Positions 216 to 55,178 of a DNA stretch of 64,000 nt are shown here, in pieces. Each line of letters starts with the position of its first letter. Within the stretch, counting starts at the first letter, position 1. Location of the stretch: NCBI GenBank assembly GCA_017450065.1, contig JAFSYI010000022.1:1-64000 (forward strand), given 5' to 3'. The stretch is from Lachnospiraceae bacterium. GTDB taxonomy: Bacteria > Bacillota > Clostridia > Lachnospirales > Lachnospiraceae. Both the position numbers and the translations under genes were made by a program. The notes below the pieces were generated by a model. That model made no database searches, was not told the DNA's origin, and saw nothing but the letters and a program-made list of their open reading frames with translations.

Positions 216-1619
216 TCAGAACTGGGCATATATGAACACATTATTACCGAAATAACCGTAGATCACAACCATCATAACAGCAAACAGGAACAGCACACGG
301 TATCCGAAGCGTTCCATATCCGCATTGACATAGAAGCCGTGTCCGTTATTCCTGATCATGGCGACTGCATATGCCACAGCAACAAATATGAAATAGATAA
401 AGAAATAAACGTAATAGTATCCTACGCCCTGTGCCCCTGTAAATATCCGTTCAAATATGGTAAATGCGTCTTTCGCGGATTCAGCCCTGAATATAATGGT
501 TCCCGCAAGGAAATACAGATATGTCGCCAGTGTGCTCATGACTGTATACACTCTTGTGTCCTTACCCGGCTTCTTTAAATATTCAACATATGTTTTATGT
601 ACACACAGGCCGATACCGCATTGTAAACCCCACAATATATAGGTCCATGCGGCTCCGTGCCACAGCCCGCCCACGATCATGGTTAATATCAGATTAAGGT
701 ACTGCCTTGCCTTACCTTTTCTGTTGCCGCCAAGTGAAATATATACGTATTCCTGAAGCCACGATGACAGACTTATATGCCAGCGTTTCCATGTCTCGGT
801 CGGATTCTTTGCAATATAGGGAAGGTCGAAATTCCTTGCGAGCCTGAAGCCCATCATTGTCGCTACGCCTGCGGCCATATCGGTATAACCGGAGAAGTCA
901 CAGTATAACTGTATTGTGTAGCATACGGTTCCCAGGAATATCGAAAGGCCCGAATACATGGAAGGATTTGAATACACAGCATTGGAACAGACCGCCAGCC
1001 TGTCTGCTATAAGGACCTTCTTGAGCGCCCCGGTAAGAAAGATCTGCATTCCGCTGTATACACCGGCTTTCGTGATCGGATGAAGCTCTCCGAACTGTCC
1101 CATAAGCTCTCTTGCCTTGGTGATGGGACCCGACATTATCTGCGGGAAGAACGAAACATACAGAGCTACCGAAAGGAAGTCCTCACAAGCTTCCATCCTG
1201 CCTCTGTATACATCCACAACATAGCTTATCACCATAAGTGTATAGAACGAAATACCTATGGGCTGTATATCCGCAAGGCTTCTGTACCTTTCGGCAAACC
1301 CTTCACCAAACAGGGCCGATCCGATAAACAGCAGATATTTGCACAGGATAAGTACCGCAACCGCTGCCAGGACCATAAGAGCCGTATACCCTTTTCCCGT
1401 CCTTCCGGATGCCTTCTCATTACGGATCTTCAAAGCGGCAAAGTAGCAGGCTGCGCTCTCGGCTATAAGAAGCGGCACCGATCTTAAGTCGCCTATACTG
1501 TAAAAAACAAGATTGGCAGTAAGCAGCAGCACGTTACGCATCTTAACTTTTTTTTGTATTGCCAGGAGCGGTATAAGAATTATATAAAACACCGCAAACC
1601 CAAGAGTCAGAAAATTCAT
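216..1619 (-). CDS. MBOAT family O-acyltransferase (AlgI/DltB type), copy 1
   Basis: A polytopic membrane protein of 467 residues in the membrane-bound O-acyltransferase family, which moves acyl groups across the membrane to extracellular glycans or alcohols. The family core is clear: WKRWHISLSSW, then GGLWHGAAWTYILWG with the invariant histidine at about residue 321, and a C-terminal FIYAQF. A GAGGT ribosome site precedes the ATG by 8 bases. It lies 104 bases downstream of a hexapeptide acetyltransferase on the same strand. Unlike the other five MBOATs here, it has no SGNH partner next to it and is the most divergent of the set. The acyl substrate cannot be read from sequence. Confidence 0.93.
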   Translation of the reverse strand: MNFLTLGFAVFYIILIPLLAIQKKVKMRNVLLLTANLVFYSIGDLRSVPLLIAESAACYFAALKIRNEKASGRTGKGYTALMVLAAVAVLILCKYLLFIGSALFGEGFAERYRSLADIQPIGISFYTLMVISYVVDVYRGRMEACEDFLSVALYVSFFPQIMSGPITKARELMGQFGELHPITKAGVYSGMQIFLTGALKKVLIADRLAVCSNAVYSNPSMYSGLSIFLGTVCYTIQLYCDFSGYTDMAAGVATMMGFRLARNFDLPYIAKNPTETWKRWHISLSSWLQEYVYISLGGNRKGKARQYLNLILTMIVGGLWHGAAWTYILWGLQCGIGLCVHKTYVEYLKKPGKDTRVYTVMSTLATYLYFLAGTIIFRAESAKDAFTIFERIFTGAQGVGYYYVYFFIYFIFVAVAYAVAMIRNNGHGFYVNADMERFGYRVLFLFAVMMVVIYGYFGNNVFIYAQF

Positions 1620-1641
1620 CCTGTATATACCTCAACACAAA

Positions 1642-1673
1642 GAATAGTGAATTTCATCATAAATTCGGTATTC
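1642..1673. repeat. Dispersed hairpin repeat, copy 1
   Basis: GAATA GT GAATTT CATCAT AAATTC GG TATTC folds into a two-part stem with a 2x2 internal loop. A near-identical sequence lies at 6347-6378, where the outer stem is GAATAG/CTATTC. Both copies sit in short gaps between same-strand glycan genes. Confidence 0.6.
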
Positions 1674-1723: not shown

Positions 1724-2269
1724 TCAGTCGTCAAAACCTATGGTGCCGTCTGCCAGCTCTTCTTTTATCCTGCTTATTTCCCCGGGAGTCTTCCGGTCCC
1801 ATGGCGTGTTATATACAGGTGAATGTTCCATCTTCTTCCGGTTCTTCTCTATATATTCATCATAGGTACATACGACTGTCGCAGGATTCCCGACCGCTAC
1901 CGAATTGCCCGGGATATTTCCCTTGACCACACTGCCCGCTCCGATCACAACCCTGTCTCCGATCGTTGTTCCCGGAAGTATTATGGAGCCGTGTCCGATA
2001 AATACATCATTCCCTATCTTTACCCTTCCTATCTTGGAATATCCCAGCTCCGTCTTGGTACTGGCGTCATGCGTAAGTATCGTTACATGCGCGAACTTGG
2101 AATTATCTCCGATCTCTATAAGATATCCGTGTCCGTAATCCAGAATGCAGTCAACAAGACCCGGATTCTTTCCGATCTTAACGCCCCTCCTTCGGTAGTC
2201 CTCTGCTGTTTCGGGGCCTATATTAAAGCATTTCTTTGCTATTCTTTTCAGTATGGTCTTCACTCCCAT
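1724..2269 (-). CDS. Hexapeptide-repeat (left-handed beta-helix) acyltransferase
   Basis: A soluble 181-residue protein with hexapeptide repeats from about residue 45 to 135 (IGDNSKFAHVTIL, IGNDVFIGHGSIILPGTTIG, VVIGAGSVVKG), ending in the usual NSVAVGNPATVV segment of CatB/maltose-type O-acetyltransferases. Such enzymes use acetyl-CoA in the cytoplasm to acetylate sugars or sugar nucleotides. The ATG at 2269 is preferred over a GTG at 2284 because GGAG lies 9 bases before it. It is transcribed towards the MBOAT at 216-1619 and away from the hydrolase-like gene at 2414, from a promoter with a perfect TATAAT. The acceptor is unknown. Confidence 0.88.
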   Translation of the reverse strand: MGVKTILKRIAKKCFNIGPETAEDYRRRGVKIGKNPGLVDCILDYGHGYLIEIGDNSKFAHVTILTHDASTKTELGYSKIGRVKIGNDVFIGHGSIILPGTTIGDRVVIGAGSVVKGNIPGNSVAVGNPATVVCTYDEYIEKNRKKMEHSPVYNTPWDRKTPGEISRIKEELADGTIGFDD

Positions 2270-2316
2270 TGCTCTTCTCTCCACCTGCCGATCTATGAAA
2301 CATACGTAACTATGTA

Positions 2317-2413: not shown

Positions 2414-3292
2414 ATGAACAGTATAAATGATTTTCCCTGGAACAGGACCGAACTGATCGAGAAACAGTATGATGAACCCAATTACAGGATAGTAAACGGC
2501 AGATCCGATAAGAAAAAAGCTCTCGTGTTTTTCTCAAGCAACGGAATATATTATCCCAATACCGAAAAAGAATTCACCGGGAAAATTATCACCCTCGATT
2601 ACTATGACTGGCTCAACATAGGAAAACACAGGCTTATCAGGTCTTATTTCTCCAGGATCGTTTACGTAAGGGATATCTACAAGCAGTGGTATGTAACCGG
2701 TATCAACAGGAAAACAGACACACGGGCCAAGCTCTGTGATTTCCTCCGGGACGAGCTTAAGGGATATGATATCACTACCTGCGGTTCCTCTTCGGGCGGA
2801 TATATGGCTGCTCTTGTCGGATCGCTGCTGAACGCCGAAAGAATTATTGACTCATCGGGTCAGTTTGATCTGTCAACCAATCTGGGGAACGAACCCTTCC
2901 TGGATTTTATGGCTGACGATCCCGTGATAAAGGAACAGCTATCCCTGAAAGACATAATATCCGGACATACCGGCTCTCTCTACTATTTCTATCCGGCGCA
3001 TAACCAAGGTGATATCGTACAGAACGAACATATCTCGGATCTTAATGTGAAGCGTTTTGCAATGGACAGCGACAGGCATAACCGGACCATTCGCCCCGTA
3101 TGCTTTCCTTATGTACTGACAATGCCCAAAGACAGGCTTGACGGGCTGCAGGAGAAATATAACGGCAGGATAATAGGCGAAGCAGAATTTTATAAGGATA
3201 CCTTATCTGTACTCAACCGCATCACAGACCCTGTCCTTTACAACATATCAAGGGTTTATTCATATGCTCGTAAGCGTATCTGCGGAAGGTAG
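2414..3292 (+). CDS. Alpha/beta-hydrolase-like protein of surface-glycan loci
   Basis: A predicted soluble protein of 292 residues without a signal peptide. A nucleophile-elbow motif, GSSSGG at residues 124-129 (Ser126), follows the segment ALVFFSSNGIYYPNT, giving the look of an alpha/beta-hydrolase fold. I recognise the type from polysaccharide clusters but know no established function. An acyl-esterase or acyltransferase role is plausible given the acyltransferase-rich surroundings. The start at 2414 has AGAGGA 5 bases upstream and lies after the promoter. The 3' end overlaps that of the opposing fucosyltransferase gene by 33 bases, so the last 11 codons are read on both strands. Confidence 0.7.
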   Translation: MNSINDFPWNRTELIEKQYDEPNYRIVNGRSDKKKALVFFSSNGIYYPNTEKEFTGKIITLDYYDWLNIGKHRLIRSYFSRIVYVRDIYKQWYVTGINRKTDTRAKLCDFLRDELKGYDITTCGSSSGGYMAALVGSLLNAERIIDSSGQFDLSTNLGNEPFLDFMADDPVIKEQLSLKDIISGHTGSLYYFYPAHNQGDIVQNEHISDLNVKRFAMDSDRHNRTIRPVCFPYVLTMPKDRLDGLQEKYNGRIIGEAEFYKDTLSVLNRITDPVLYNISRVYSYARKRICGR

Positions 3293-4204
3293 CACGCCCT
3301 GCGTAATGTTAAGCCCCTTAATATCTGCGGTGTACCAGCCCTTTTCGTCAGGAATAAGCGCATCGGACAATACATCCGGTCTGATCACTGTCTTATCTTC
3401 GTTCCTGTTGAGTACAGCTCCCCACAGACTGAAGGTGGAATTGCATATGATATTGTTCCTGCATGCACTCATGAGCAGCATGTCGTAATGACTGTCCTCA
3501 CCCTTGTTCCAGTCAACGATCTCATATCTGTACGGGATGTTCCCGTACTCACTGCGCACATATCCGGGATCATCCGAAAAGAAAAAGAAAACCGGATCGT
3601 TTAATCTGGTGCTCATATATTTCATAACATTAAGATAATAATCCTTTTTAAGCTTATCAAGCGCCCCTCCGACATAATCTCCCCTTCTTATGTGTACGCT
3701 GACCGATTCACATTCCTTCATACGGCCGGCCGCCTCCAGATTGGCACCTTCAAGCGGGAGCTTATACTCGAAATCACTTATCGCAGGCTCATATATCCAG
3801 TTCCATGAATTATCTATCCAGCAATTATACTCATCAATTGAGTCTTTATGTTCCTTACAGAAGGCTTTCCAGTCGGACTGGTGCATCCTGACCGTTTTAT
3901 TTCCCTTAAGCCTGTATCCTATATGATTGTGATATTTCTTTTTCAAAACATCGAACGGACCGGCATTTTTCCTCTGATACTCACCTCCGCAGGCCAGTAT
4001 TTCCTGCGTGGTTGCAACATCTTCAAGCTCTATCCCAAATACCCTTTTTAGTTCATAGCCGTGATGAGGGACATACTTCTTATATATCCATCTGTCCATG
4101 TCTGCCTTGATAACACATCCGGGAAGCTCATCCTTAAGCTGCTTGTAAAAACAATATTCCAGCATCTGGTTTCCCATGCCTGCATCTATCTTAACAATTA
4201 TCAT
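3260..4204 (-). CDS. Alpha-1,2-fucosyltransferase, GT11 family
   Basis: A 314-residue enzyme with the GT11 layout: N-terminal IIVKIDAGMGNQMLEY, then the signature HIRRGDY at residues 171-177, then FFFFSDDP, and a C-terminal MSACRNNIICNSTFSLWGA block. The family moves L-fucose from GDP-fucose to a terminal galactose or similar sugar, which predicts a fucose-capped surface glycan. The ATG at 4204 is chosen because GGAAGGA lies 6 bases before it and GT11 homology begins there; an upstream in-frame start at 4252 has no such site. It is the last gene of the minus-strand run that begins at 10312. No GDP-fucose synthesis genes are visible. Confidence 0.92.
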   Translation of the reverse strand: MIIVKIDAGMGNQMLEYCFYKQLKDELPGCVIKADMDRWIYKKYVPHHGYELKRVFGIELEDVATTQEILACGGEYQRKNAGPFDVLKKKYHNHIGYRLKGNKTVRMHQSDWKAFCKEHKDSIDEYNCWIDNSWNWIYEPAISDFEYKLPLEGANLEAAGRMKECESVSVHIRRGDYVGGALDKLKKDYYLNVMKYMSTRLNDPVFFFFSDDPGYVRSEYGNIPYRYEIVDWNKGEDSHYDMLLMSACRNNIICNSTFSLWGAVLNRNEDKTVIRPDVLSDALIPDEKGWYTADIKGLNITQGVLPSADTLTSI

Positions 4205-4256
4205 CCATAATCCTTCCCGATGCTTCTTTATGCAGAATACATCTTCCGACACCCGG

Positions 4257-5189
4257 TCAAACCTTCAGAATTTCCCTTACCTTATCCCGTATCCTTATAT
4301 ACATGCTCAGATGATGTCTTCTGTAGAAGTCACGGATAAGCTCTCTGTTTGGCATGACTCCCGCATCAGCCCACTGTTTCCTGTCTTTTTCCGTCTCACC
4401 AAAGGTCAGTGCATTACTCTCATCATCCTTACAGTTGGTTCCGCTGCCGTCAAGTCCGTTATTGATTACAAGACTTTTTATGGGAGCCACGGACATCATG
4501 TCATGCCTTGACTGGGAAAGGCACCATCTTACAGCCCACGAATCTATCTTCCCCTTCTTATATGCCCTGAGCATGCTCGGAAGATCATTTCCGCCTCTCA
4601 TAAACCTTATGTTGGCCACCGGATCCAGTCTGAATGTACTGTAGTCCTTCACCTCCCAATCAGCCATATCCCATCTGTCTCTCCATGTTCCCCAGCCCCA
4701 GGAGGATGCCCTGTATGTAAGATATATATTGCTGCCATAGCCTGCCGGTCTGGCGGGATTATGGGAATAGCCGTCTATTGACCATATTCTTTTATCTTCC
4801 ACGAAGCACTCAAGACATTCATTCATATAATCAAGGAAGTACTCCGATAACACCAGGTCATCTTCCAGGACAATGACCCTGTCATACTCTTTAAGAATAC
4901 CTGTGATCCCGTCGATCACAGAGCGCGCAAGTCCCTTATTGCTTTCCGCCATATGCAGATTAACGCTCTTAAACCAGTCCTTTGACCCAAGAGACCGCAC
5001 ATACTCCCTGACCTCTTTAACTCCGGCTTCAGCCTTGGGGTTTTTAGCCGCATCGGAGAATACATGCACATCACTTTTTTCAGCCGGCTCATTACGTCTT
5101 AACGATTCAAATAAAGCCCGGGTTTTTTCCGGCCGGCTGTATACAAAAACAGCTACCGGAGCATATTTTGCACTTACCATGTCACTCAT
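4257..5189 (-). CDS. GT-A fold glycosyltransferase (GT2-like)
   Basis: A 310-residue cytoplasmic glycosyltransferase. It begins with a Rossmann-type strand (PVAVFVYSRPEKTRAL), has SNKGLARSVIDGI, and a metal/nucleotide-binding DxD-type motif in VIVLEDDLVLS at residues 109-111. The segment SSWGWGTWRDRWDMADW matches a GT2-like group often mislabelled as hemolysin-activation protein. The sugar donor is unknown. Its start has GGTGAT 5 bases upstream, and it begins 12 bases after the preceding glycosyltransferase gene ends, so the two are probably co-translated in the operon 10312 to 3260. Confidence 0.8.
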   Translation of the reverse strand: MSDMVSAKYAPVAVFVYSRPEKTRALFESLRRNEPAEKSDVHVFSDAAKNPKAEAGVKEVREYVRSLGSKDWFKSVNLHMAESNKGLARSVIDGITGILKEYDRVIVLEDDLVLSEYFLDYMNECLECFVEDKRIWSIDGYSHNPARPAGYGSNIYLTYRASSWGWGTWRDRWDMADWEVKDYSTFRLDPVANIRFMRGGNDLPSMLRAYKKGKIDSWAVRWCLSQSRHDMMSVAPIKSLVINNGLDGSGTNCKDDESNALTFGETEKDRKQWADAGVMPNRELIRDFYRRHHLSMYIRIRDKVREILKV

Positions 5190-5201
5190 ACAACATCACC
5201 A

Positions 5202-6332
5202 TCAGGCAGTAGTCCTGTCAACATCACTTCTGAACCTGTTCAGTTCCTTACAGTGAATGTGAAGATCATATATCTTATACTTCTTTTCATTATAATACAT
5301 AAATGGCATGAAGCCTCTCTTATCCTTTTCCCAGCGGATATCAAGCCCTGAAATATCGACATAGCTTTGGACATTTTCATAACCCGCATTATCCTTAACT
5401 CCTCTCGGCTTCTGATCCGTGCCGCCCAGATACTGGCCTATCGGCGCAGGATCGAATATACCGCCGAACTCATCCGTAAGAAGGCTGTATTCCTCAATAT
5501 GATCCCCGGGAGGACGGTCGCCTTTTTTATTTATAAGTCCCTTCTCAGACACATATTCCCTGTTGATTATCGGAAGCGGCGTCAGCCCCTTCTCCCGCAG
5601 ATATCCTGCCAGCATGATCATGTCATTGGTTCCCTTATCCAGAACATGCTCAAGCACATAATCAAGAAACCCATCCAGCGAATCAGCATCCGGAATGTAC
5701 ATGACCGCAGCCATGCAGTACCGCTCAGCCATTCTCGGGACCGTGATATCATTAAAAAGACCGGCCATTTTCTCAATAAGCACTCCGGCGTCCTCATAAA
5801 GCAGGATATCATTCTCCATATGGATGACCTTCTTAAGATCCAGGCTCCTTATTACTTCATTCAGTATAAAGAATCTTTCCGATGTATGCTGGAAGAAATT
5901 ATCATACTGCGACCTGAGGGAAGACAGCTTCCTGTAGAACTTAAGATGCATCGCCGACACCGGAACGTCTTCGATACGGACCACACAGGCATTATCGGCG
6001 ATCCTCTCAGGTACCTCCTTATCCCTGTTGCACACAAAATATACCGGGATATCGCTGAACAGTCTTATCTGTTCTATGCAGTCCGCCACGTAACCCGGTA
6101 TCGGTCTTACCCCCGAATGAGTCAGTACGATACAGCCTTCGGTTCCTGCAGGTATCCCGGATACTCTGAGGCTGTCCCTCACCCGCGGCTCTCTTATGTA
6201 ACTTCGCATATTTCTTATACGGTTCATGATCCGAAAGACCGTGAGTCTTACACTGAACTTCGTTATGGCTCCCCACCGGTCCGAGAGATCATCAAACACC
6301 TCTTTTATCTTTCTTCCGATTTCCACTTTCAT
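5202..6332 (-). CDS. Putative glycosyltransferase of unknown specificity
   Basis: A 376-residue soluble protein. After a basic N-terminal region there is a nucleotide-sugar-like core: EGCIVLTHSGVRPIPGYV, a strand ending in IPVYFVCNRD, and KKVIHMENDILLYED, where END could act as a DxD-type motif. No family can be named with certainty. The ATG has GGAG only one base before it, and a GTG two codons later is better spaced, so the start may be 6326. It lies between an ABC exporter and a GT2-like enzyme in the same operon, which supports a role in building the exported glycan. Confidence 0.55.
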   Translation of the reverse strand: MKVEIGRKIKEVFDDLSDRWGAITKFSVRLTVFRIMNRIRNMRSYIREPRVRDSLRVSGIPAGTEGCIVLTHSGVRPIPGYVADCIEQIRLFSDIPVYFVCNRDKEVPERIADNACVVRIEDVPVSAMHLKFYRKLSSLRSQYDNFFQHTSERFFILNEVIRSLDLKKVIHMENDILLYEDAGVLIEKMAGLFNDITVPRMAERYCMAAVMYIPDADSLDGFLDYVLEHVLDKGTNDMIMLAGYLREKGLTPLPIINREYVSEKGLINKKGDRPPGDHIEEYSLLTDEFGGIFDPAPIGQYLGGTDQKPRGVKDNAGYENVQSYVDISGLDIRWEKDKRGFMPFMYYNEKKYKIYDLHIHCKELNRFRSDVDRTTA

Positions 6333-6346
6333 TCTCCGATATCATG

Positions 6347-6378
6347 GAATAGTGAATTTCATCAGAAATCCGCTATTC
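6347..6378. repeat. Dispersed hairpin repeat, copy 2
   Basis: GAATAG (6347-6352) pairs with CTATTC (6373-6378), with an inner GAATTT/AAATCC stem carrying one mismatch. It shares most bases with 1642-1673. The base changes between copies keep the outer stem or strengthen it, which suggests selection on the fold. It sits in the 72-base gap between a glycosyltransferase gene and the ABC exporter gene. Confidence 0.6.
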
Positions 6379-6404
6379 GTAATGAAACAGCCGAAGCTGT
6401 ACCT

Positions 6405-8207
6405 TTACCTGTCCATGGATGTTAATATCCCGTCAACAAGCTTCTTCTCTGTAAGCGCCCCGTCCCTGACCTCATAGATATGATTGCATTTACTTATGGT
6501 CGACAGCCTGTGGGCTACTATTATAAGCGTTTTCTCACCCTTAAGGATATCTATTGCTTCCATGACCGCCTTCTCCGTATCATTATCAAGCGCCGACGTT
6601 GCTTCATCAAGAATAAGTATTTCCGGATTAAAATACAATGCCCTTGCTATGGCTATCCTCTGCTTCTGGCCGCCGGATATTTTGGCTCCGCTTTCTCCGA
6701 TCTGTGTTTCAAGGCCATCCGGAAGTGAGTCTATGAAGTCGTTAAGCTGTGCTTTCTTTATCACGTCCTTAAGCTTTTCATTATCGATCTCATCCTGACC
6801 GCATCCGAAGGCTATATTATTTTTTATCGTATCATCCAGCATGAAAATGTTCTGCGACACATAACCTATAAGTCCGCCCCACGATCTTTCACCGAGGTCG
6901 ATCTCCTTACCGTCAACCGCTATTCTCCCGCCTGTGATACGGTTAAGACCAAGGATCACATCGGCAAGCGTGGTCTTACCGGCTCCGGAGGGACCTACGA
7001 GAGCAACCGAATCACCCTTCTCCACCTTAAGATCAATACCGTCAAGTACATTGGGAAGCTCCGGCGAATACGCAAAGGACAAACCGGATAAAACAAGCTC
7101 ACGGTTAAACCCGTCTATCCTCTCCCCCGCAATACAGTCATCATCCTCTGCTTTTATCATCTCCCCGTTGCTGATCGTACTCTTAAGATTATTAAGCGCT
7201 GCCGTTACGGGTTCATATGAAAACATAAGTATATTAAGACAGCCCGACAGCTGCGACACGAAAGGGAGCATCCTGAAGCTTGCCACTGCAAATATGGAGA
7301 GATTGGCAACAAAGGTTCCGTCTACCTTCCCCATATACGAGAGCACACCTACCGCCATAATAAGGCCTCCGATAAAGACCGTCTCAATTATACGTTCAGG
7401 CAGCGGTGACAGCGTTGTATATCCGACGTCAATGGAACACCTCTTTTTTACGGTTTCGCCGTAATGCTTAACAAAGTAATCCCTCCTGCCCAGGATCTTG
7501 ATCTCCTTCATGCCGGTGACTATCTGGGTGATATCCTTAAGCATGTTCCCCTCGGCGTTCCTTCTAAGGGCTCCCATTGTCCTCATCTTACGCTTAAGGA
7601 TACCTGTTATGATGACCACCGAAACAAGTCCGAGTCCGACCACAATGAGCGTAAGCACAATATCCGTACAGAACAGCCATACGCATATAAGGAATACATT
7701 TATCAGCCTTACGCCGATGTTAAAATAATTCTGCAGTGTATTAAGATACGCATCTATATCACTCGTCAGTCCCCTCAGTATAACCGAGCTGTTTTCATTT
7801 ACAAAAAAAGCATAGTCATTACGGATATAAGCGCGCAGTGATTTCTCCGAAAGTGTATATCGCGTATCCGCAACAAGCCTTGCCTGCATATATGTCGACA
7901 GCGTAAGATACACGTTCTTGACAAGATAAAGCAGCACTACCGAAACCGACAGTCCCAGTATTACCTCCCTGTTGCCGTTAAGGCCTGTGAGACGGACAAA
8001 CCAGCTGTAGAGCATATCGTCCCCGGCTTTATCGGGAGTCATTATGATCTTAACGACCGGGAGAACCGCCGATACACCCAATAGTTCCAGGAATCCTCCC
8101 ACGACTATCATGACAAATACGACAGTACAGTTCCGTCTCTGTTTTTTATTTAGGACCTTCATCATATCCCGAAGAAGGCCTATAAACAGTCCCGCTTTTT
8201 TCAGCAT
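6405..8207 (-). CDS. ABC exporter, fused permease and ATPase (MsbA/PglK type)
   Basis: A 600-residue half-transporter: about six membrane segments in residues 20-320, then a nucleotide-binding domain with Walker A GPSGAGKTT (405-413), signature ISGGQKQRIAIARAL, Walker B ILILDEATSALD (catalytic Glu at about 535) and the H-loop IIVAHRLSTI. Proteins of this build export or flip lipids and lipid-linked oligosaccharides as homodimers. In this operon, between acyltransferases and glycosyltransferases, flipping a lipid-linked glycan is the likeliest role. The ATG at 8207 has GAGGTA at good spacing and sits 5 bases after the upstream gene; the longer start at 8246 would overlap it. Confidence 0.9.
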   Translation of the reverse strand: MLKKAGLFIGLLRDMMKVLNKKQRRNCTVVFVMIVVGGFLELLGVSAVLPVVKIIMTPDKAGDDMLYSWFVRLTGLNGNREVILGLSVSVVLLYLVKNVYLTLSTYMQARLVADTRYTLSEKSLRAYIRNDYAFFVNENSSVILRGLTSDIDAYLNTLQNYFNIGVRLINVFLICVWLFCTDIVLTLIVVGLGLVSVVIITGILKRKMRTMGALRRNAEGNMLKDITQIVTGMKEIKILGRRDYFVKHYGETVKKRCSIDVGYTTLSPLPERIIETVFIGGLIMAVGVLSYMGKVDGTFVANLSIFAVASFRMLPFVSQLSGCLNILMFSYEPVTAALNNLKSTISNGEMIKAEDDDCIAGERIDGFNRELVLSGLSFAYSPELPNVLDGIDLKVEKGDSVALVGPSGAGKTTLADVILGLNRITGGRIAVDGKEIDLGERSWGGLIGYVSQNIFMLDDTIKNNIAFGCGQDEIDNEKLKDVIKKAQLNDFIDSLPDGLETQIGESGAKISGGQKQRIAIARALYFNPEILILDEATSALDNDTEKAVMEAIDILKGEKTLIIVAHRLSTISKCNHIYEVRDGALTEKKLVDGILTSMDR

Positions 8208-8212
8208 TGTAA

Positions 8213-9334: not shown

Positions 9335-9355
9335 ACGTATTCTCCGGGCATTTCG

Positions 9356-46122: not shown

Positions 46123-46127
46123 CACGG

Positions 46128-47057: not shown

Positions 47058-47148
47058 ATGGTATATCACCTCTGTCTGTCATCTTTTATCACTACCGTTT
47101 ATGCGTTACTTATTCTACAGGAAACGTATCAGTGCATTTACCGTATCC

Positions 47149-48108
47149 TTAATGTCCTGTAAGCTTTTCTATACTTTCAAAGCTGTAATTCTTGCGCTTG
47201 AATACAAGGTTTACAAGCAGCTGGAGATATTTAATGATTATTGTCAGGATACCGAACAGTCCCAGGAATGAGACTGATAAAAACAGTATCGTGGTGGTCC
47301 ATCCCGCGACCGGATGCTTAAGGAGATAAATAACGACTGAGTAAACAAGCATGAACACAGACATAAACATCATAAACAGTGTCATTGCTTTCCCGAATCT
47401 GTATCCCATATCTGTAAACAGTATAAGCACATCCATTGCCAGTCCGGATCTGTATTTGGCTTCCTTTCTGTCTCTTCTGTACCCGGAGCCCCCGACAATA
47501 TCATACCTGATATTATCTGTTTTAAGCCCGCAGTTCGCATACACTGCCTTCCTGTATGGAACCGACTTATTCATCGACCGTATCCTGTTTATCACCCGTC
47601 TGCTGAGTATCCTGAAGCTCTCGGTCGTCATATCGTAGGAAACATCGGAGAACCTGTCAAAGACTGCATAAAACATTCTCGAAGTGAATCTGTCGTTCCT
47701 GTCCGGCGATGCGCTGACTATGTCATAACCCTCAAGACACCGCCTGTATACCTTCATGATCATATCCTCGGAAAAGTCCGGAACCGTTCTGTCAAACTCA
47801 AAAACGAAATCACCTATGGTAAGATCCATACCCGCATTCATGGCTGCTTCCAGTCCGTGAAAATAGCTCAGGTTCACCACGGTTATGCTGGTCTTTTCAG
47901 CCGTTTCTGCGCATTTCTTTATTTCCCCGACGCTTCCGTCATCCGAATGATCGTTAACGCAGATTATCTCGGAATATTCGAAATTATCCTCCATTACCGA
48001 TATTACGGTTTTCAGAAAGCTTCCTATCCACTGCTGTGAATTATGTACATACAGTACTGCGGACGCGAAATTCTTTTCTCTGTTGAAGCTTTTATCATTA
48101 TTGGTCAC
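47149..48108 (-). CDS. GtrB/ArnC-like polyprenyl-phosphate glycosyltransferase
   Basis: A 319-residue protein: a GT2 domain (ASAVLYVHNSQQWIGSFL, SEIICVNDHSDDGSV, DFVFEFDRTVPDFSEDM) and two C-terminal membrane spans (about 235-255 and 265-290), the build of GtrB/ArnC-type enzymes that charge undecaprenyl phosphate with a sugar. The most likely start is a GTG at 48108 with GAGGT about 8 bases before it, overlapping the FAD gene by 11 bases; ATG codons further upstream lack a ribosome site. It would supply the GT-C-like enzymes of the locus. Confidence 0.82.
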   Translation of the reverse strand: MTNNDKSFNREKNFASAVLYVHNSQQWIGSFLKTVISVMEDNFEYSEIICVNDHSDDGSVGEIKKCAETAEKTSITVVNLSYFHGLEAAMNAGMDLTIGDFVFEFDRTVPDFSEDMIMKVYRRCLEGYDIVSASPDRNDRFTSRMFYAVFDRFSDVSYDMTTESFRILSRRVINRIRSMNKSVPYRKAVYANCGLKTDNIRYDIVGGSGYRRDRKEAKYRSGLAMDVLILFTDMGYRFGKAMTLFMMFMSVFMLVYSVVIYLLKHPVAGWTTTILFLSVSFLGLFGILTIIIKYLQLLVNLVFKRKNYSFESIEKLTGH

Positions 48109-49231
48109 TGTCAAGTACCTCATCCAAATCATATACAGTATTGATCTTGCCCGAAAGAACGCTGACAAAGGTCGGAGACTCCGATAAAACCCTGATGACC
48201 GTCGGGCGTGAATCATCTATCTCCGAGCTCAGAAGAATAGGCTTCATCGAAAACAGCGAGCCCCTGTATGTGAACCGGTAGTCATCCAGAAGATACTTGC
48301 CGGCAAGGGATGACATATACGGGAAGGCTGTTTCGGGCTTTGCCGGACAGTCATTGCAGTTCCCCAGTCTTTCACGGGTGCAGAAGCCGCCGCTTCCGTT
48401 CTGGCAGTCAAAGACCGGGAGCCGCTCATAGCTTGTGCTGTGCGGCGTAAAGGTTACCGATGTAAGCGAATGGTAACCGGTTTTTCCAAAAGGCATGATC
48501 GAGAAGAAAGGACCGTCCATGACCGTAAACCCTGTGTCTTTTAATACATCATTCACTTCACACAATATGATCTCGCACAGCTCGTATTTGATATCAAACC
48601 CGTCCGCTCCCGCAAGCTTAAGCACCTGATTTATTCCTGCGTAAGAGGCATTGAGCACAAAGGAAGAACTGTACTCACTACCGTCACTCTCTCTTATGAT
48701 ATAGCTGTCGTCACTGCGGTCCGTTCCCGTGATGACCGCTCCGTATTTGACTTTGAAGGAACCGTCGTATTCTTTCAGCTTATCAAGGAAATAATCCTTT
48801 AATATCCCGGCATCATAGGTGTACTCTCTTGTAAGAAAGGCTCCGTCACACATACCGGGCTTGAAATAATTCCCCGGAGACAGCTCTTTACATGGTATAC
48901 CCGCAGCTTTACAGAACTCTCTGAACTGCTCTCCGTCTGTCCAGGAATACTGCGATGATGTGGCATATATCTGTTCGAATTCCCTGTTGATGCAGAAATC
49001 GTAATCCCTGTTGAAACGTTCAAAATATCCCGCCGATCTTATCGCCGTGGATAATGATCTCGGATAATGATATCCCTGATGTACTCTTGCCTGATTAATG
49101 TAAGTGGCCCGTTTGAACGGTCCGCTGTCACTCTCAAGCAGCAGAACGTTCAGTCCTTTTTTCAGGCTGTATAATGCCGAATACAGGCCGTACAGGCCTG
49201 CGCCTATTATTATCCTGTCGAATCTTTCCAT
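48098..49231 (-). CDS. FAD-dependent oxidoreductase (DAO-like)
   Basis: A 377-residue flavoprotein: FDRIIIGAGLYGLYSALYSL (GxGxxG dinucleotide site) and VLLLESDSGPF, then INQARVHQGYHYPRS and AFLTREYTYDAGILKDYF. A cysteine group in FCTRERLGNCNDCPAKPET may bind metal. It has the build of D-amino-acid-oxidase-like proteins found in some glycan clusters; the substrate is unknown but may be a sugar intermediate. The ATG at 49231 begins the FAD fold, but its GGAG is 14 bases upstream, so the start is not certain. First gene of the module. Confidence 0.8.
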   Translation of the reverse strand: MERFDRIIIGAGLYGLYSALYSLKKGLNVLLLESDSGPFKRATYINQARVHQGYHYPRSLSTAIRSAGYFERFNRDYDFCINREFEQIYATSSQYSWTDGEQFREFCKAAGIPCKELSPGNYFKPGMCDGAFLTREYTYDAGILKDYFLDKLKEYDGSFKVKYGAVITGTDRSDDSYIIRESDGSEYSSSFVLNASYAGINQVLKLAGADGFDIKYELCEIILCEVNDVLKDTGFTVMDGPFFSIMPFGKTGYHSLTSVTFTPHSTSYERLPVFDCQNGSGGFCTRERLGNCNDCPAKPETAFPYMSSLAGKYLLDDYRFTYRGSLFSMKPILLSSEIDDSRPTVIRVLSESPTFVSVLSGKINTVYDLDEVLDSDQ

Positions 49232-49277
49232 GATCTGAAGCTGTTCTCCGCCCGTGTTTCCCGATAAATACGAATCT

Positions 49278-49306
49278 AAAATACCACAGTTTACGACTAT
49301 TATCAA
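49278..49306 (-). promoter_or_regulatory. Promoter of the FAD oxidoreductase module
   Basis: On the minus strand, TTGATA (49301-49306), 17 bases, TATTTT (49278-49283). Confidence 0.5.
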
Positions 49307-49418: not shown

Positions 49419-50897
49419 TTGCTTTTTAATTCCTTAGAATTCCTGATCTTCTTTCCGGTCGTGGCAGTAATTTATTACCTTATTCCGGATAAGATCAAAT
49501 ATATCTGGCTTCTTGCGGCAAGCTACTATTTCTATATGCAGTGGAACCCTGTATATGTTTTTCTGCTGCTTACTTCAACCGTGGTCACATACACAGGCGC
49601 GCTTATACTGGAGCGTACCGTCAGTACACGCGGCAGGAAGATATGTCTTTTCCTTGGACTTTTCATCAATCTGTCGATACTCGGATATTTCAAATATGCC
49701 TCGTTCATCATGCTGTATCTGGGCAAAGCTCTGTCAGTCATCGGCATACATACCGCTCCCTTTGAAAAAGATATACTGCTTCCGGTCGGTATTTCCTTCT
49801 TTACGCTGCAGGCACTGGGATATCTCATAGATGTATACAGGAAGGATATCTATGCCGAACGGAATTTCCTTAAATACGCGCTGTTCATCTCCTTCTTTCC
49901 CCAGCTTGTTGCGGGTCCCATCGAGCGCTCAAAGAACCTTCTTAAGCAGCTTTCGGAGCCTCACCGCTTCTCGTTTGACAATCTGCGGGAAGGGATGCTC
50001 ATTATGCTCTACGGCTTCTTCCTGAAGATTGTCATTGCTGACAGGGTGGCTGTTATCGTTGATGCGGTCTACAATGAATCGTACGGCCGTCCCGGCTTCT
50101 ATATCATCTTTGCGACGATACTGTTTTCACTTCAGATCTACTGTGATTTCTACGGGTATTCTACCATAGCCAAGGGAGCTGCCCTTACCATCGGCGTACG
50201 TCTGATGGATAATTTCAACGCACCTTATTATTCAAAAAGTATCAAGGAATTCTGGAGGAGATGGCATATTTCACTGTCGACCTGGTTCAGGGATTATCTC
50301 TACATTCCCCTTGGCGGAAACCGGAAAGGAAGGCTCAGGAAATATATAAACATCATCATCGTATTTGCCGTCAGCGGACTGTGGCACGGCGCCTCCGTAT
50401 CATTTATCGTATGGGGTCTGCTCCATGGTCTGTATCAGGTTATCGAAGATGTTATTTCATCCGTAAAGTCCTTCATAACGGCCCGGAGAAAGCTTTCCCC
50501 GGGCAGTGAGCTGTTCTCGGACAGGCTTGCAAAGCTGGCAGTGACTCTTTTTCTTACCGCCTTTGCATGGCTGTTCTTCAGAGCAGGCAGCATGAGCAGT
50601 GCCCGGGTGCTTCTTGAGGGTATTGCATCGGATCTTAACTGGACTGTCCTGTTTAACAAGTCGGTTTATTCTCTCGGAGTTTCCGAGGATTATTTCCATG
50701 TATTGCTTATATCGGTCGCCCTGCTTGCCTTTATCGACCGTCTTAAATACAGGGGGATCAATGTTACTGCCGCTTTCTTCAGGCAGCGCTGGTGGTTCAG
50801 GGCTTTGGCCGAGGCCGGTCTGCTGCTCTTCATAATACTCTTCGGATGCTACGGAAGCGCTTATGATGTACAGCAGTTTATATATTTTCAGTTTTAG
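49419..50897 (+). CDS. MBOAT family O-acyltransferase, copy 6
   Basis: A 492-residue MBOAT protein: LLFNSLEFLIFFPVV at the start (first codon TTG), PVGISFFTLQALGYLIDVYRK, FFPQLVAGPIERSKNLL, FWRRWHISLSTWFRDYLY, VSGLWHGASVSFIVWG with the invariant His at about residue 323, and C-terminal FIYFQF. TTG is the start because GGAG lies upstream at good spacing and the paralogues start at the same residue. It pairs with the long SGNH protein 9 bases downstream. Confidence 0.95.
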   Translation: MLFNSLEFLIFFPVVAVIYYLIPDKIKYIWLLAASYYFYMQWNPVYVFLLLTSTVVTYTGALILERTVSTRGRKICLFLGLFINLSILGYFKYASFIMLYLGKALSVIGIHTAPFEKDILLPVGISFFTLQALGYLIDVYRKDIYAERNFLKYALFISFFPQLVAGPIERSKNLLKQLSEPHRFSFDNLREGMLIMLYGFFLKIVIADRVAVIVDAVYNESYGRPGFYIIFATILFSLQIYCDFYGYSTIAKGAALTIGVRLMDNFNAPYYSKSIKEFWRRWHISLSTWFRDYLYIPLGGNRKGRLRKYINIIIVFAVSGLWHGASVSFIVWGLLHGLYQVIEDVISSVKSFITARRKLSPGSELFSDRLAKLAVTLFLTAFAWLFFRAGSMSSARVLLEGIASDLNWTVLFNKSVYSLGVSEDYFHVLLISVALLAFIDRLKYRGINVTAAFFRQRWWFRALAEAGLLLFIILFGCYGSAYDVQQFIYFQF

Positions 50898-50906: not shown

Positions 50907-52319
50907 ATGAAAAAGAACGTAAGAAACCTCGCACAACTTATACCGGTGATCCTTATCTTCCTCGCAGGCTGCAGACTCCTCGATCTTCTGTATGTTCCCG
51001 AGGACGAGTGGCACAGGATACTCTTCCATTCCTACTATACACAGGAGAGGAATATCGATCAGGCCTTCATCGGCTCTTCTCATATATTATGTGATGTGGA
51101 ACCTCTCCTTCTTGATGAGATCAACGGATATAATAACTTCAACATGTCGTCACCCCAGCAGCGCTTTGATGCAAGCTACTATCTTCTTAAGGAGATGGCC
51201 GGGGATCATAAGCTTAAGCATGTCTATCTTGAATGCTATTATCTGTGTGTGACCGATCACGAAATATATGATAAGAACTCTGACAGCGTACGTGTATCCG
51301 ATTATATCGGAGATCCCGATCATTTCGCTTCCTCATGGCAGATCAGCTATGCGATGAAGCCGTCTCTTAATTCCGTTGCGATACAGCTCCATGCATCAGA
51401 CAGGGATCATATGATCGAGAATCTTATTCCGTTTGTAAGATATCGCGAGAAGCTGTTTGACTGGGAGCATATATCGGATAATCTGTCTAATTTCAGGCCT
51501 TCATCGGAAAGAGGCTACAGCTTTCATATAGATTATGAGGAGCCGGACGGTTCGCCCTGGTACCAGGAATATCATATCAAGGGAGACAACAGCTCAAACG
51601 GTCGTGTTTTTGACAGCGAAAAAATATTTCCAAAAGACAGGGATCTGACCAGATTCGGAATAGGCGCCAAGAGCCGCAGCTATCTGTGCAAAAGCATTGA
51701 GTTCTGCCAAAAAAACAATATCCCCGTTACCCTGTTCGTATCTCCCGTTCTTGATTTTCAGTTATTGAGTACAGGAGACTATGACAGGTATGTAACGGAG
51801 CTTAAGAGTCTTGCTGACGGATACGGTATCGAATGCTATGACATGAACCTTATAAAGAGGGAATATCTTGATATAAAGCGCGGTGAGTACTATATGGATC
51901 CGGAGCATCTTAATACTGCCGGAGCAGAGGTATACACAGAGGCATTATGGAATGTACTCAGTGATTCCGCGGATAATAATATGTCCAAATTCTATACCAC
52001 ATATTCAGAAAAGCTTGCAGCAGAGGAGCCTGAGATATACGGGCTGTACCGGATGCCTGTTTCGGGAGATCTCACACACAGGGATGACGGCAATCCGGAG
52101 ATCGACATGCAGTATACAATAGCCTCCAACCGGGATGATATGGAATACACGGTAACCAATATCGTAGGCGATCCCGCTTCTCCCTCAGGCAGAACGGAGT
52201 ATATCATACAGGAACGCAATAAGAACAATACCATCGTCCTTCCTTCGGATTCGCATGGCACCCTGCGTATCGAAAGCGAATATGAAGGAGCAGATCTTAT
52301 GCTTGAAGTCGGATACTGA
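50907..52319 (+). CDS. SGNH-like partner of the MBOAT (long form), possible lipoprotein
   Basis: A 470-residue protein. Its N-terminal hydrophobic segment ends in FLAGC (Cys22), which fits a lipobox, so it may be a lipoprotein rather than a simple membrane-anchored protein. Block I is QAFIGSSHILCDV with Ser58, block V DPEHLNTAGAEVY, and a C-terminal domain of about 110 residues resembles that of the 24973 protein. It starts 9 bases after its MBOAT with AGGA in front. It is likely to accept acyl groups from that MBOAT. Confidence 0.85.
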   Translation: MKKNVRNLAQLIPVILIFLAGCRLLDLLYVPEDEWHRILFHSYYTQERNIDQAFIGSSHILCDVEPLLLDEINGYNNFNMSSPQQRFDASYYLLKEMAGDHKLKHVYLECYYLCVTDHEIYDKNSDSVRVSDYIGDPDHFASSWQISYAMKPSLNSVAIQLHASDRDHMIENLIPFVRYREKLFDWEHISDNLSNFRPSSERGYSFHIDYEEPDGSPWYQEYHIKGDNSSNGRVFDSEKIFPKDRDLTRFGIGAKSRSYLCKSIEFCQKNNIPVTLFVSPVLDFQLLSTGDYDRYVTELKSLADGYGIECYDMNLIKREYLDIKRGEYYMDPEHLNTAGAEVYTEALWNVLSDSADNNMSKFYTTYSEKLAAEEPEIYGLYRMPVSGDLTHRDDGNPEIDMQYTIASNRDDMEYTVTNIVGDPASPSGRTEYIIQERNKNNTIVLPSDSHGTLRIESEYEGADLMLEVGY

Positions 52320-52386: not shown

Positions 52387-53964
52387 TCACACATAGAACA
52401 CAAACAGCGTAACAAGCACGATCAGATTGGCAGCACACATACATACGGCCGGTGCTGTCATGATATCCGGGTGTGCAGTCCCTTCTTTGCCTGTCTCTGC
52501 CCTGCCGTACTTCTTCTTGAGAAGATAAACAGTCTGGAAAGTGAGCGGTATGAAATACCTTCCCTGCAGTCCAAGCACGCTCTCTGCCCTGTACGGTGTC
52601 CATTCAATATACAGACTCAGAAATGTAAAAACAATACTCAGCACTGTCGCAGCTCCCAGTATCACGGTCGGCCTCTTCCATATACTCAGTACCGTCTCAT
52701 CCTCATATTTTAACAGCCTTTCAAAACAGCAGGCATATATCAGGCTTCCGGCCGAGATGAACAGCACCTGGATACCGCAGTCAACATTAAAGTAACTAAG
52801 CGACAGCCCGAAGTAAGTCTTGACCAGCCATTCCCCTTCCTGTATGAGCGTATAGAACATAACCTGCACAAAGCTCCACGGATGTGTTATCACGTAAACT
52901 GTCTGAGCGGAAGCGGATACACCCTCCATATACTCAAGAAGATATCTGGATCCTATGAGTAAAGGCCATCCTACTGCAAGAAGCACTATCATTATCCCTG
53001 CGCAGATGATATGAATGAAGTACTGTTTTTTGCCTCCGAATCTTTCCGGCGGTATAACGAATGCCATTAAAACAAACGGAGCGTAAACGATCTTACAGGA
53101 GGCAACAAGTGCAAGCAGGAAATACATCTTTACGATCTCCTTATTGTTCATTACTTCCTTTTTCTCATATCTGAGCCATAACGAATAAGCTATTATAAGC
53201 AGTGTCACCGCATATGCCATGCCGTCACCGCTCAGGGAGGCACATTCGTATATATTCATGGGAAGAAGACTTAATAATAGCAGTATGTTCTTTCCAAAGG
53301 GCATCAGCTTTATCGCATAATATATAAGTATTCCGGATGCAACAAGCTCACAAAGCCTTCCAACGTACGCTATTATGTATGGTCTGTCGCATATCAGGCG
53401 CGTTATCAGCATACCGGCAGCCTGGGGAAGATACGTCAGTGGCGAATAAAAAGCAGTATTGGAATAGGTCTGGAACGTCTTCTCCCCGCTTGACCTCATC
53501 CACAGGTTATCCGACATGTATTTAAGGCGTACACCGCTCCGGTCCCACAGATAAGTGAGATTTGCGGGACAGTAGCTTCCGCCCTCCCCCTGCTCATTTA
53601 CCGGTGGAATGAAGTCTCCTGTCGTTATCCCATAAGTTCTCAGCATATGCTCGGTTTCATCCGGTATGGCAGACAAAGGCGATACCGTCATATAAGCTAA
53701 CCCCAATACAAGATAGAGTACGATAAATATCTGTTCATGTCTCAGTCTGTCCGCCGCCTTTATTATAAAAAAAGACAGAGCGATAAACCCTGCACAGCCG
53801 ATCAGATATGAAACCGCCTGGACAGTGGTGCGGGATATCCAGTCATATTCCGCTTTTCTTGAAAGAAGCCATCTTACGGAATAAAAAATGACGATCAGAA
53901 GCGAGGCCAGACCGATCCCTGTCCGGTAATCTGTTTTTTTTGCAGTTCCTTTGTTCTTACTCAT
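52387..53964 (-). CDS. DUF2142-like polytopic membrane protein (GT-C type)
   Basis: A 525-residue protein with about twelve spans. The loop after the second or third span reads LSAIPDETEHMLRTYGITTGDFIPPV, which matches the PDE-H motif of DUF2142 and the acidic loop of GT-C enzymes. Relatives are found in teichoic-acid and capsule loci. The ATG at 53964 has GGAG 7 bases upstream. It follows an acyltransferase gene by 20 bases and so belongs to the dgt operon. Confidence 0.8.
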   Translation of the reverse strand: MSKNKGTAKKTDYRTGIGLASLLIVIFYSVRWLLSRKAEYDWISRTTVQAVSYLIGCAGFIALSFFIIKAADRLRHEQIFIVLYLVLGLAYMTVSPLSAIPDETEHMLRTYGITTGDFIPPVNEQGEGGSYCPANLTYLWDRSGVRLKYMSDNLWMRSSGEKTFQTYSNTAFYSPLTYLPQAAGMLITRLICDRPYIIAYVGRLCELVASGILIYYAIKLMPFGKNILLLLSLLPMNIYECASLSGDGMAYAVTLLIIAYSLWLRYEKKEVMNNKEIVKMYFLLALVASCKIVYAPFVLMAFVIPPERFGGKKQYFIHIICAGIMIVLLAVGWPLLIGSRYLLEYMEGVSASAQTVYVITHPWSFVQVMFYTLIQEGEWLVKTYFGLSLSYFNVDCGIQVLFISAGSLIYACCFERLLKYEDETVLSIWKRPTVILGAATVLSIVFTFLSLYIEWTPYRAESVLGLQGRYFIPLTFQTVYLLKKKYGRAETGKEGTAHPDIMTAPAVCMCAANLIVLVTLFVFYV

Positions 53965-53984
53965 TAAATTCTCCACCGTTTATC

Positions 53985-55178
53985 CTACTTTTTCTTTGAT
54001 CCGGGCCATCTTACTATAAATGGCAGAAACCTGTTAACAAACATAACTATGGGAATTTCCGCGATCAGCACAAGCAGAAGTATTATTATATCGTCTCCAT
54101 ACCTGCCGATGCCGGGAACATATTTTTTGTATAACTCATATATCGTTCCAAGTACGGGCAGCGGATTATGCGTCGCCATCATCGTAAGAGAGTTCTTGCC
54201 GAAATACTCAAGAGGGCGGCTCTTTATATTAAGTACCTCTCCCAGGTACAATATTGCGAAGGAAGTCAGTATTCCGGTCAGATACTGGAGCGGAAGGCTT
54301 ACTATCCTTACAAACGAATAATCCACGAAATGATTCGGCTGTGCGATCGGGAAGTCAATAATAAGCCAGATTATGCATGCAGTGATCATTGCCTTATGAT
54401 TTATCTTAAGGATCCTGTCTTTATATTCAAAATAGAAATAACCTGCGTAAATAAATACTGCCGACATGAGTATTCTTGTGAACTTGACGAAGGTGAACCA
54501 TCCGTCGGCATATTCCTCTATGATTCCGTAATGGAGCACGCAGTAGCATATAAGGCTCAGTACCGTCACGGCTGCAAATCCTGCCCATTCCTTCCTTACT
54601 CCTCTTCTGTACGCAGCACTGCCGGGCCCGGGCTCAGTCTTATCTGCATCTTTTATTTCAGCTCCGTCTTTTGTACCGGCTCCGTCTTTTATACCGGTTT
54701 CATCTTTCTTCCCTGCTTCATCCATTCCCGGGCAGTTCCCCCGTCCGAAATATCTCAGAAGCAGCACACATATGACTTCCGCAAAGAACAGCGTGGGCAT
54801 GAACCATAAGGCATCATAGCCCGAGAGAGTCAGTGTACTCTTGACGATCTCAGCTATATTCGAAAAGCTGCCTTCCTTAAATACCACTCTCATAAATGTA
54901 TAATAAAGGATTATCAGGGCACTGAAAGAAAAATAAGGATACAGTACACCCTTCAGACGTTTTACGATTATCCGGGCAAAGCTCTCGTTTCTCCATCTGT
55001 CAAGATAATGAAGAAGGGCACCGGATACAAAGAAAAAAATAGCCATACAGAACGATCCGATCCATGAGCACATCGGATTGTCTCCTGTATCCACGTGTGC
55101 AAGTATGACTACAATGATTCCGATACCTCTTGCAATATCAAGATAATTCAGCTGCTTTTTTTTCCTGTTTTCCTGCAT
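53985..55178 (-). CDS. Acyl_transf_3 membrane acyltransferase with a repeat-bearing loop
   Basis: A 397-residue protein with about ten spans: QLNYLDIARGIGIIVVILAHVDTG with the conserved His, then FCMAIFFFVSGALL. The loop at about residues 150-190 has a degenerate six-residue repeat (GIKDGA, GTKDGA, EIKDAD), encoded by an 18-bp tandem repeat. The ATG directly follows the dgt stop (TAAATG), with GGAG just upstream, which suggests translational coupling. Confidence 0.88.
   Translation of the reverse strand: MQENRKKKQLNYLDIARGIGIIVVILAHVDTGDNPMCSWIGSFCMAIFFFVSGALLHYLDRWRNESFARIIVKRLKGVLYPYFSFSALIILYYTFMRVVFKEGSFSNIAEIVKSTLTLSGYDALWFMPTLFFAEVICVLLLRYFGRGNCPGMDEAGKKDETGIKDGAGTKDGAEIKDADKTEPGPGSAAYRRGVRKEWAGFAAVTVLSLICYCVLHYGIIEEYADGWFTFVKFTRILMSAVFIYAGYFYFEYKDRILKINHKAMITACIIWLIIDFPIAQPNHFVDYSFVRIVSLPLQYLTGILTSFAILYLGEVLNIKSRPLEYFGKNSLTMMATHNPLPVLGTIYELYKKYVPGIGRYGDDIIILLLVLIAEIPIVMFVNRFLPFIVRWPGSKKK
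54643..54714. repeat. 18-bp in-frame tandem repeat
   Basis: Four units of 18 bp; 54661-54678 and 54679-54696 are almost identical (GCTCCGTCTTTT-GTACCG), the outer two degenerate. It codes for the charged loop of the acyltransferase. Confidence 0.7.

Follow-up and report, generated by a model that had tools for sequence, protein, structure and literature searches.

The locus and its acyltransferase genes

The first 64 kb of the 112,947-base contig C82 (JAFSYI010000022.1), hereafter the window, belong to a 3.22-Mb genome of a Lachnospiraceae bacterium assembled in 100 contigs, and carry genes for acyl transfer interspersed with surface-glycan genes. Fifty reading frames of the window were scanned against Pfam, with frames below 100 amino acids read by eye. 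The nearest named groEL sequences, from the Lachnospiraceae MAGs RUI387 and UBA4316, are 91% identical to that of the window in a comparison that may have omitted its own record; the host is placed in an uncultured genus of the family. Pfam matches and motifs bear out the 18 components counted in an earlier note on this DNA: six MBOAT proteins, six SGNH-like proteins, four Acyl_transf_3 (AT3) proteins, one hexapeptide-repeat enzyme and one GNAT enzyme. These are of three mechanistic classes: the MBOAT/SGNH shuttle, the single-domain AT3 proteins, and the soluble hexapeptide and GNAT enzymes.

MB1 (216..1619, minus strand; Pfam E-value 1.3e-27, C-terminus FIYAQF) lies at the edge of the contig, which begins at base 1, and no SGNH partner for it is visible in the window. 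MB2 (20572..22074, minus; 8.5e-30, FVYFQF) is paired with SG2 (22158..23261, minus; GTSC ... DYNH), and MB3 (23419..24879, plus; 8.5e-32, FIYFQF; a TTG start at 23347 is possible) with SG3 (24973..26295, plus; GPSH ... DPVH), whose Pfam matches to GDSL_2 (4.9e-5) and DltD (1.5e-4) are both below the cut-offs. MB4 (31302..32801, minus; 1.7e-30, FIYFRF) is placed between two SGNH-like proteins: SG4 (29851..31290, minus; GSSH ... DEGH), with a DUF1574 match below cut-off (1.8e-4), and SG4b (32820..33893, minus; GSSH ... GTGH), in which the Asp of DxxH is missing. MB5 (40600..42066, minus; 5.9e-30, FVYFQF) is adjoined by SG5 (39403..40398, minus; GNSN ... DTKFH), and MB6 (49419..50897, plus; 4.2e-32, FIYFQF) by SG6 (50907..52319, plus; GSSH ... 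DPEH).

The four AT3 proteins match PF01757 above cut-off: AT3a and AT3b (8213..10312, minus; 6e-21 and 6e-25), AT3c (10502..11626, plus; 2.7e-25) and AT3d (53985..55178, minus; 4.9e-23), the last with orthologs (72-76%) in the congeners G003, G008, G035 and G023. For these proteins of 318-397 residues Pfam gave the AT3 domain alone, with no fused SGNH domain of the OatA type. The hexapeptide-repeat acyltransferase (1724..2284, minus; Hexapep 5.2e-13) and the GNAT acetyltransferase (33893..34501, minus; Acetyltransf_3 2e-23) are of the soluble type.

The MBOAT proteins

All six MBOATs of the window match PF03062 above cut-off (E 1.3e-27 to 4.2e-32), and all six contain the invariant His within WHGA and have F-[IV]-Y-x-[QR]-F at the C-terminus, as the earlier note had observed. 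The terminal hexapeptide is present in 16/16 MBOATs of this genome, the His together with the hexapeptide in 98/98 full-length MBOATs of a first sample, and the hexapeptide, under the lax pattern [FYWLI]xYxx[FYWLM], in all 161 full-length MBOATs of a larger set from 57 genomes. The latter comprises 44 proteins from other genera and 117 from the genus (16 from this genome and 101 from others), mostly the stronger among the matches listed out of 363 in the genus genomes; 6 of 167 frames, of at most 400 residues, were excluded.

The hexapeptide corresponds to an acyl shuttle demonstrated for PatA/PatB and, according to the same paper, for Dlt: the MBOAT His helps to load the acyl group onto the Tyr of the hexapeptide, from where it passes to the SGNH Ser and then to the polymer (PMC12148441). 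By their motifs the six MBOATs look active and of the kind that acylates surface polymers.

Identity with the Dlt system was considered and rejected, as all six MBOATs score far under the cut-off of the DltB equivalog TIGR04091 (150-181 bits against 375). No carrier protein or DltX was recognised by eye in the window, where groES was the only recognised protein among the small intergenic frames, as expected for systems with a fused shuttle.

The SGNH-like partners

None of the six SGNH-like proteins passes a Pfam cut-off. Each possesses a G-x-S motif in block I, a His late in the sequence and a single hydrophobic segment near the N-terminus. A neighbour with the block-I Ser and the block-V His is present for five of the six MBOATs (MB2-MB6). 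When SG2 is aligned with SG3, SG4 and SG6 (19-28% identity to SG2), 18 columns are invariant, among them those of the block-I Ser and the D-x-x-H pair. A profile made from these four proteins and 11 relatives gave six matches in the PDB up to E 1, of which the top one, CgnD (2.4e-4), was identified by name only, ranks 2-5 (4.7e-4 to 0.44) are named GDSL or acylhydrolase, and the sixth is unrelated by name.

The profiles of SG4b and SG5 found no PDB match. SG4b covers the whole Lipase_GDSL_2 model at E 0.0026, while SG5 is SGNH-like solely by its motifs (G-N-S-N and D-x-x-x-H), its single hydrophobic segment and its position, its orthologs adjoining those of MB5 in the congeners G019, G023 and G035. 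These two are weaker SGNH cases than the other four. The six SGNH-like assignments proposed earlier are weaker than those of the MBOATs: all six show the motifs, the joint profile of four of them points tentatively to SGNH enzymes, and MB1 is without a partner in the window.

Pairing and co-divergence

Of the 161 full-length MBOATs, 111 have an SGNH-like gene on the same strand no more than two genes away, directly downstream in 87 cases, compared with 29 of 1182 background open reading frames. These partners were selected by a written motif rule with no filtering by hand and gave 110 pairs (one partner being shared) from 48 genomes. The similarity of the MBOATs correlates with that of their neighbours (r 0.841 over all pairs and 0.484 for MBOATs of similarity below 0.45), while shuffling of partners within genomes gave means of 0.146 and 0.026 +/- 0.032, correspondingly, with 0/500 shuffles reaching the observed values. 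The first sample was filtered by hand from 74 pairs to 64 by dropping eight partners judged non-SGNH by eye (one of them a hidden Markov model match) and two partners common to two MBOATs; it gave r 0.896 against 0.195. At least one of the dropped partners, from locus L008, is included in the second sample.

The co-divergence of partners that the earlier note proposed to test is thus present across the genus and the family but not within this genome alone, where no correlation was observed over 12 pairs (r 0.104, P 0.30). The partners of MB2-6 are only 12-28% identical (SG2 and SG4 being the 28% pair), or 12-27% with SG4b standing for MB4. The lack of correlation may be read as the outcome of a conserved MBOAT loader served by divergent, acceptor-reading SGNH transferases; saturation of the SGNH comparison would explain it equally simply.

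The number of MBOATs

This genome contains 16 MBOATs, and MBOATs were found in all 37 genomes of the genus (5-20 per genome, median 9). In 59 genomes from other genera of the family the number is 0-9, with a median of 3 (Mann-Whitney P 1e-14, which is nominal since related genomes are not independent). The genomes of the other genera are each at least 90% complete while those of the genus start at 59%, so the bias in completeness works against the excess in the genus. Six or more of the 16 MBOATs fell within 51 kb in 1/20,000 uniform placements (P 5e-5). The exceptional number noticed at this locus therefore holds when counted in relatives, and the unusually high number across the genus is new; among open-access literature judged by titles, no description of multi-MBOAT loci in Lachnospiraceae was found. 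Known MBOAT-SGNH systems are usually described as one per polymer.

A seventh MBOAT with an SGNH-like gene lies on the same contig past addB and a glutamine synthetase gene, at about 71.3-81.6 kb (G000:C82; L001:7287-17609), together with genes for a HAD protein, a TPP enzyme, an HMGL-like enzyme, a GT2 glycosyltransferase, a methyltransferase and an aminotransferase. One may speculate that this cassette makes its own acyl or sugar precursor. At other MBOAT loci of the genus (for example L121, L138, L174 and L187) the MBOAT recurs with proteins of 253 (FIPGGSD), about 506 (DVTHWNDRG) and about 650 residues; loci like L121 represent a type of cassette in which the large partner is of another kind.

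Inheritance of the cassettes

Orthologs of SG2, SG3, SG4 and SG6 were sought in 36 congeners and those of SG5 in the fetched loci only. Above 60% identity, SG2 and SG3 have an ortholog only in G023 (69% and 67%) and SG6 only in G019 (93%), while SG4 has none, its best identity being 39%. Orthologs of MB5/SG5 above 60% are present in G019, G023 and G035, in three different settings: downstream of groEL in G019, in the middle of a contig without groEL in G023 (about 48-51 kb of 118 kb), and, in G035, on the opposite side of groEL at a distance of about 21 kb.

The relatives keep parts of the set: G023 carries 2+3 and 5, G019 carries 5+6, and neither has an SG4 ortholog. The contig of G023 that carries MB2/SG2 (C147) also contains orthologs (67-79%) of the GT8, AMP-binding ligase, GT2 and TupA genes of the window. 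One end of this contig and one end of C116, the contig carrying MB3/SG3, have exactly the same 30 nt, oriented as in the window. This is expected of neighbours and indicates that 2+3 form one block in G023. Similarly, the MB5/SG5 contig and the groEL contig end of G019 share 141 nt, indicating the order MB6-groESL-MB5 as in the window. The co-inheritance of 2+3 in one congener and 5+6 in the other points to inheritance in small blocks, not to six cassettes that are entirely free of each other. There are at least four units (1, 2+3, 4 and 5/6) with different histories, and 5 occurs without 6.

The groESL neighbourhood

The groEL (42361-43983) and groES (44072-44356) genes, on the minus strand, are located between MB5 and MB6, and this is the sole groEL found in the genome. 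The operon is accompanied by a promoter-like sequence and by TTAGCACTC-N9-GAGTGCTAA at 44440-44414, which resembles the CIRCE consensus and is taken as a CIRCE-like operator. With this operator of its own, a heat-shock operon separates MB5 from MB6.

In 19 of 26 groEL loci from congeners, a relative of the u57571 gene lies on the upstream side of groEL. These 26 loci contain nine MBOATs, in seven loci, against 1.54 expected from the genome-wide density, the region having been picked for this count because of the window. One of the nine is the MB6 ortholog of G019, one is a 52% relative of MB5, and the rest are of other types. Eight congeners have a groEL at least 96% identical, seven of them with a visible upstream flank, and only G019 carries the MB6/SG6 block. 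In five close congeners the block is missing within the 8.7-9.6 kb of upstream flank, and in G008, where 3.4 kb is visible, other genes adjoin groES.

Immediately past the 3' end of groEL, at 42102-42274, is a 48-bp tandem repeat. In several congeners a contig breaks off less than 0.5 kb from groEL, and in G019 the contig end that is shared enters the same kind of repeat, so that the breaks may be assembly effects.

Proposed function and alternative explanations

Several horizontally variable acylation blocks around groESL are a better reading of these data than one 18-component system. It appears likely that a variable surface-glycan region around groESL has collected five MBOAT-SGNH cassettes, an MBOAT with no partner in view and four AT3 proteins, in at least four separately inherited blocks. 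By analogy with PatA/PatB and Dlt chemistry, each MBOAT would obtain its acyl group from a thioester in the cytoplasm, with acyl-CoA the probable donor, and load it onto the Tyr within the FxYxxF hexapeptide at its own C-terminus. The membrane-anchored SGNH neighbour would then accept it on the block-I Ser and pass it to an extracytoplasmic polymer. The MBOAT would serve as the conserved loader, while the divergent SGNH partner probably sets the acceptor. The blocks would be gained and lost between species, with horizontal transfer as the presumed route, and the acylation repertoire would consequently differ from genome to genome. The multi-acyltransferase reading of the earlier note thus survives in part: the surface acylation machines look active and are exceptionally numerous, but neither a single 18-part system nor switching is upheld.

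Several observations weigh against separately inherited blocks of shuttle cassettes. MB1 has no partner in view and MB4 has two (29851 and 32820), while SG5, with D-x-x-x-H, and SG4b, with no Asp, deviate from the classical DxxH. The correlation between MBOATs and partners is absent from the genome itself, and 19 of the 26 congener groEL loci have no MBOAT. The shared contig ends described above tie 2 to 3 in G023 and 5 to 6 in G019. The support of the MBOAT tree around MB2-4 is weak (0.47), and the draft congener genomes are 59-99% complete, so that gaps remain.

A broader form of this reading, which we regard as possible but tentative, is that the genus diversifies its surface by collecting interchangeable cassettes of a loader and an acceptor-specific transferase, many of them by groESL. 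A conserved MBOAT would be coupled to SGNH transferases that diverge fast, and the resulting near-private combination of ester marks in each species would amount to an acylation barcode, assembled horizontally and selected by phages or the host.

That some of the pairs acylate something other than a polysaccharide, such as peptidoglycan, teichoic acid, lipids or proteins, is somewhat doubtful. The same machine acetylates peptidoglycan in PatAB and D-alanylates lipoteichoic acid in Dlt (PMC12148441), but the window MBOATs fall far below the DltB cut-off and their neighbours are largely glycan genes.

We consider it unlikely that all the cassettes and AT3 enzymes decorate one and the same surface polysaccharide built by the locus, one of the two readings offered by the earlier note. 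The cassettes do lie among numerous glycosyltransferase genes, with an ABC exporter and polytopic proteins of the membrane, six MBOATs within 51 kb are beyond chance, and 2+3 are adjacent in G023, as are 5+6 in G019. Nevertheless, by strand the cassettes are distributed over six transcription units, the heat-shock operon with its CIRCE-like operator parts MB5 from MB6, and each relative lacks a different portion: G023, with 2+3 and 5, has no SG4 or SG6 ortholog, and G019, with 5+6, has no SG2, SG3 or SG4. It is the partial retention in relatives and the position of groESL inside the region that make one 18-component system less likely than separately inherited blocks.

Local tandem duplication of one cassette is very unlikely. 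Related MBOATs do stand side by side, MB2-6 being mutually 41-48% identical, and a clade of eight, with the weak support of 0.47, unites MB2, MB3 and MB4. The same clade includes proteins of three other genera, however, and in the tree MB3 and MB4 are closer to MBOATs from other genera than to those beside them in the window; MB2, MB3, MB5 and MB6 are each closer to relatives from other species than to one another in the window, and the partners are only 12-28% identical.

Most improbable of all are acylation variants switched by phase variation or recombination within the strain, also proposed in the earlier note. No recombinase or integrase is present among the 50 Pfam-scanned frames, those below 100 residues being judged by eye only. 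The repeats amount to homology between MBOAT genes, one 36-nt pair at 89% that links the tail of the Clostridiales-1 RNA with the end of the GT87 gene, and a 31-nt hairpin next to groEL, which is the only near-perfect invertible repeat of at least 24 nt reported in the window. The MBOAT homology consists of stretches of 60-84% DNA identity in both orientations, which is presumably low for homologous exchange; MB2 and MB3, for example, which face opposite ways on either side of SG2, share 77 nt at 84%.

The genus, with up to 20 MBOATs per genome and an SGNH-like neighbour for most of those sampled, offers a natural set for establishing which half of a cassette reads the acceptor and what acyl group is carried. 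It would also link O-acylation to differences in the cell surface between species of Lachnospiraceae from gut and rumen.

Comparison with known systems

Among the closest known systems are PatA/PatB and the general acyl-shuttle model (PMC12148441), with which the cassettes share the catalytic His, the fused C-terminal FxYxxF and a neighbouring SGNH-like protein that has a single hydrophobic segment at its N-terminus. A further likeness to PatA/PatB is that no carrier protein was recognised by eye in the window. Unlike PatA/PatB, the window contains a row of five pairs whose partners differ strongly from each other, in a Lachnospiraceae host.

The resemblance to the Dlt system (DltB/DltD/DltX) is seen in an MBOAT profile, which matches DltB structures at E 2e-40, and in SG3, which comes just under the cut-off of the DltD model. 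In contrast to Dlt, the MBOATs remain below the DltB equivalog cut-off, the shuttle peptide is fused rather than supplied as DltX, and no DltA or DltC was recognised in the window.

In the alginate (AlgI/AlgJ/AlgX) and cellulose (CcsHI/WssHI) acetylation systems, an MBOAT and SGNH-like partners are similarly found within an exopolysaccharide cluster; these systems are named in PMC12148441. The window differs from them in having several cassettes and no alginate or cellulose synthase among its Pfam matches. MB4 and its pair of SGNH-like proteins resemble the set of AlgI, AlgJ and AlgX. The four PF01757 proteins are similar to AT3 surface acyltransferases, from which they differ in being single-domain proteins with no fused SGNH domain found.

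Other genes and sequence elements

Beyond the hexapeptide enzyme lie a GT11-like glycosyltransferase, two more putative transferases and an ABC exporter (3260..8246, minus), assigned by Pfam except for the frame at 5202-6332, which has no family. A mixed-strand group at 11623..19117 comprises, by Pfam, GT8, an AMP-binding ligase (12750, plus), a GT-D-like protein, GT2, a TupA-like ATP-grasp protein, PGA_cap and GT4, and is followed by the GT87-like polytopic glycosyltransferase that adjoins MB2 (19237..20565, minus; Pfam 2.3e-9). Between SG3 and SG4 are two large polytopic proteins of 538 and 644 residues (26353..29854, minus), with eight and nine hydrophobic segments, which have no credible Pfam family and are GT-C-like by topology only.

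A CotH-like protein (34594..36216, plus; 1.7e-23) precedes a 730-residue polytopic protein with ten hydrophobic segments and a DUF5672 protein (4.2e-36), which together (36218..39327, minus) adjoin SG5/MB5 and have relatives of 57-64% and 70-88%. A general module of a polytopic protein beside an MBOAT was considered and rejected, such proteins being found at 19/98 positions against 16/144 background positions, with no clear enrichment. The block adjoining MB6/SG6 (44500..49306, minus) encodes, by Pfam, GT2b, a TIM barrel, an RmlD-like protein, GT2c and an FAD oxidoreductase and is 85-94% identical in G019, where the DUF2142 membrane protein on the other side of SG6 (52387..53976, minus; 1.8e-41) is 91% identical. 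The flanking backbone at 55179..63955 (minus), with an HD-domain (dGTPase-like) gene, GT2d, u57571, u59058, ECF and AddA, forms the edge of the locus rather than its interior. A 312-residue frame at 2354-3292 (plus), on the strand opposite to its neighbours, contains the nucleophile-elbow-like motif GSSSGG and has no Pfam match at E 0.001.

Searches of plasmid and phage collections for mobile copies of MB6 gave only matches below 60% identity. Pseudomonas phage Y5 (OQ572407.1:74548-75561) encodes an MBOAT homolog 41% identical over 70% of MB6; many other homologs from the phage collection are in short unannotated faecal 'phage' records and may be bacterial.

A Clostridiales-1 RNA (RF01699) is located at the start of the contig (17-142, plus). 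The genome contains 22 matches to this RNA, several of them at contig ends. Five copies (in the window, C42, C46, C10 and C100) are almost identical at the 3' end and are flanked by a sequence like GTATAGTTTTGAC. This flank sequence recurs (19278-19197, minus) where the coding sequence of the GT87 gene ends, making up its final codons, and in the region before GT4. The tail and flank look like a dispersed repeat, often placed directly after the stop codon of a gene.

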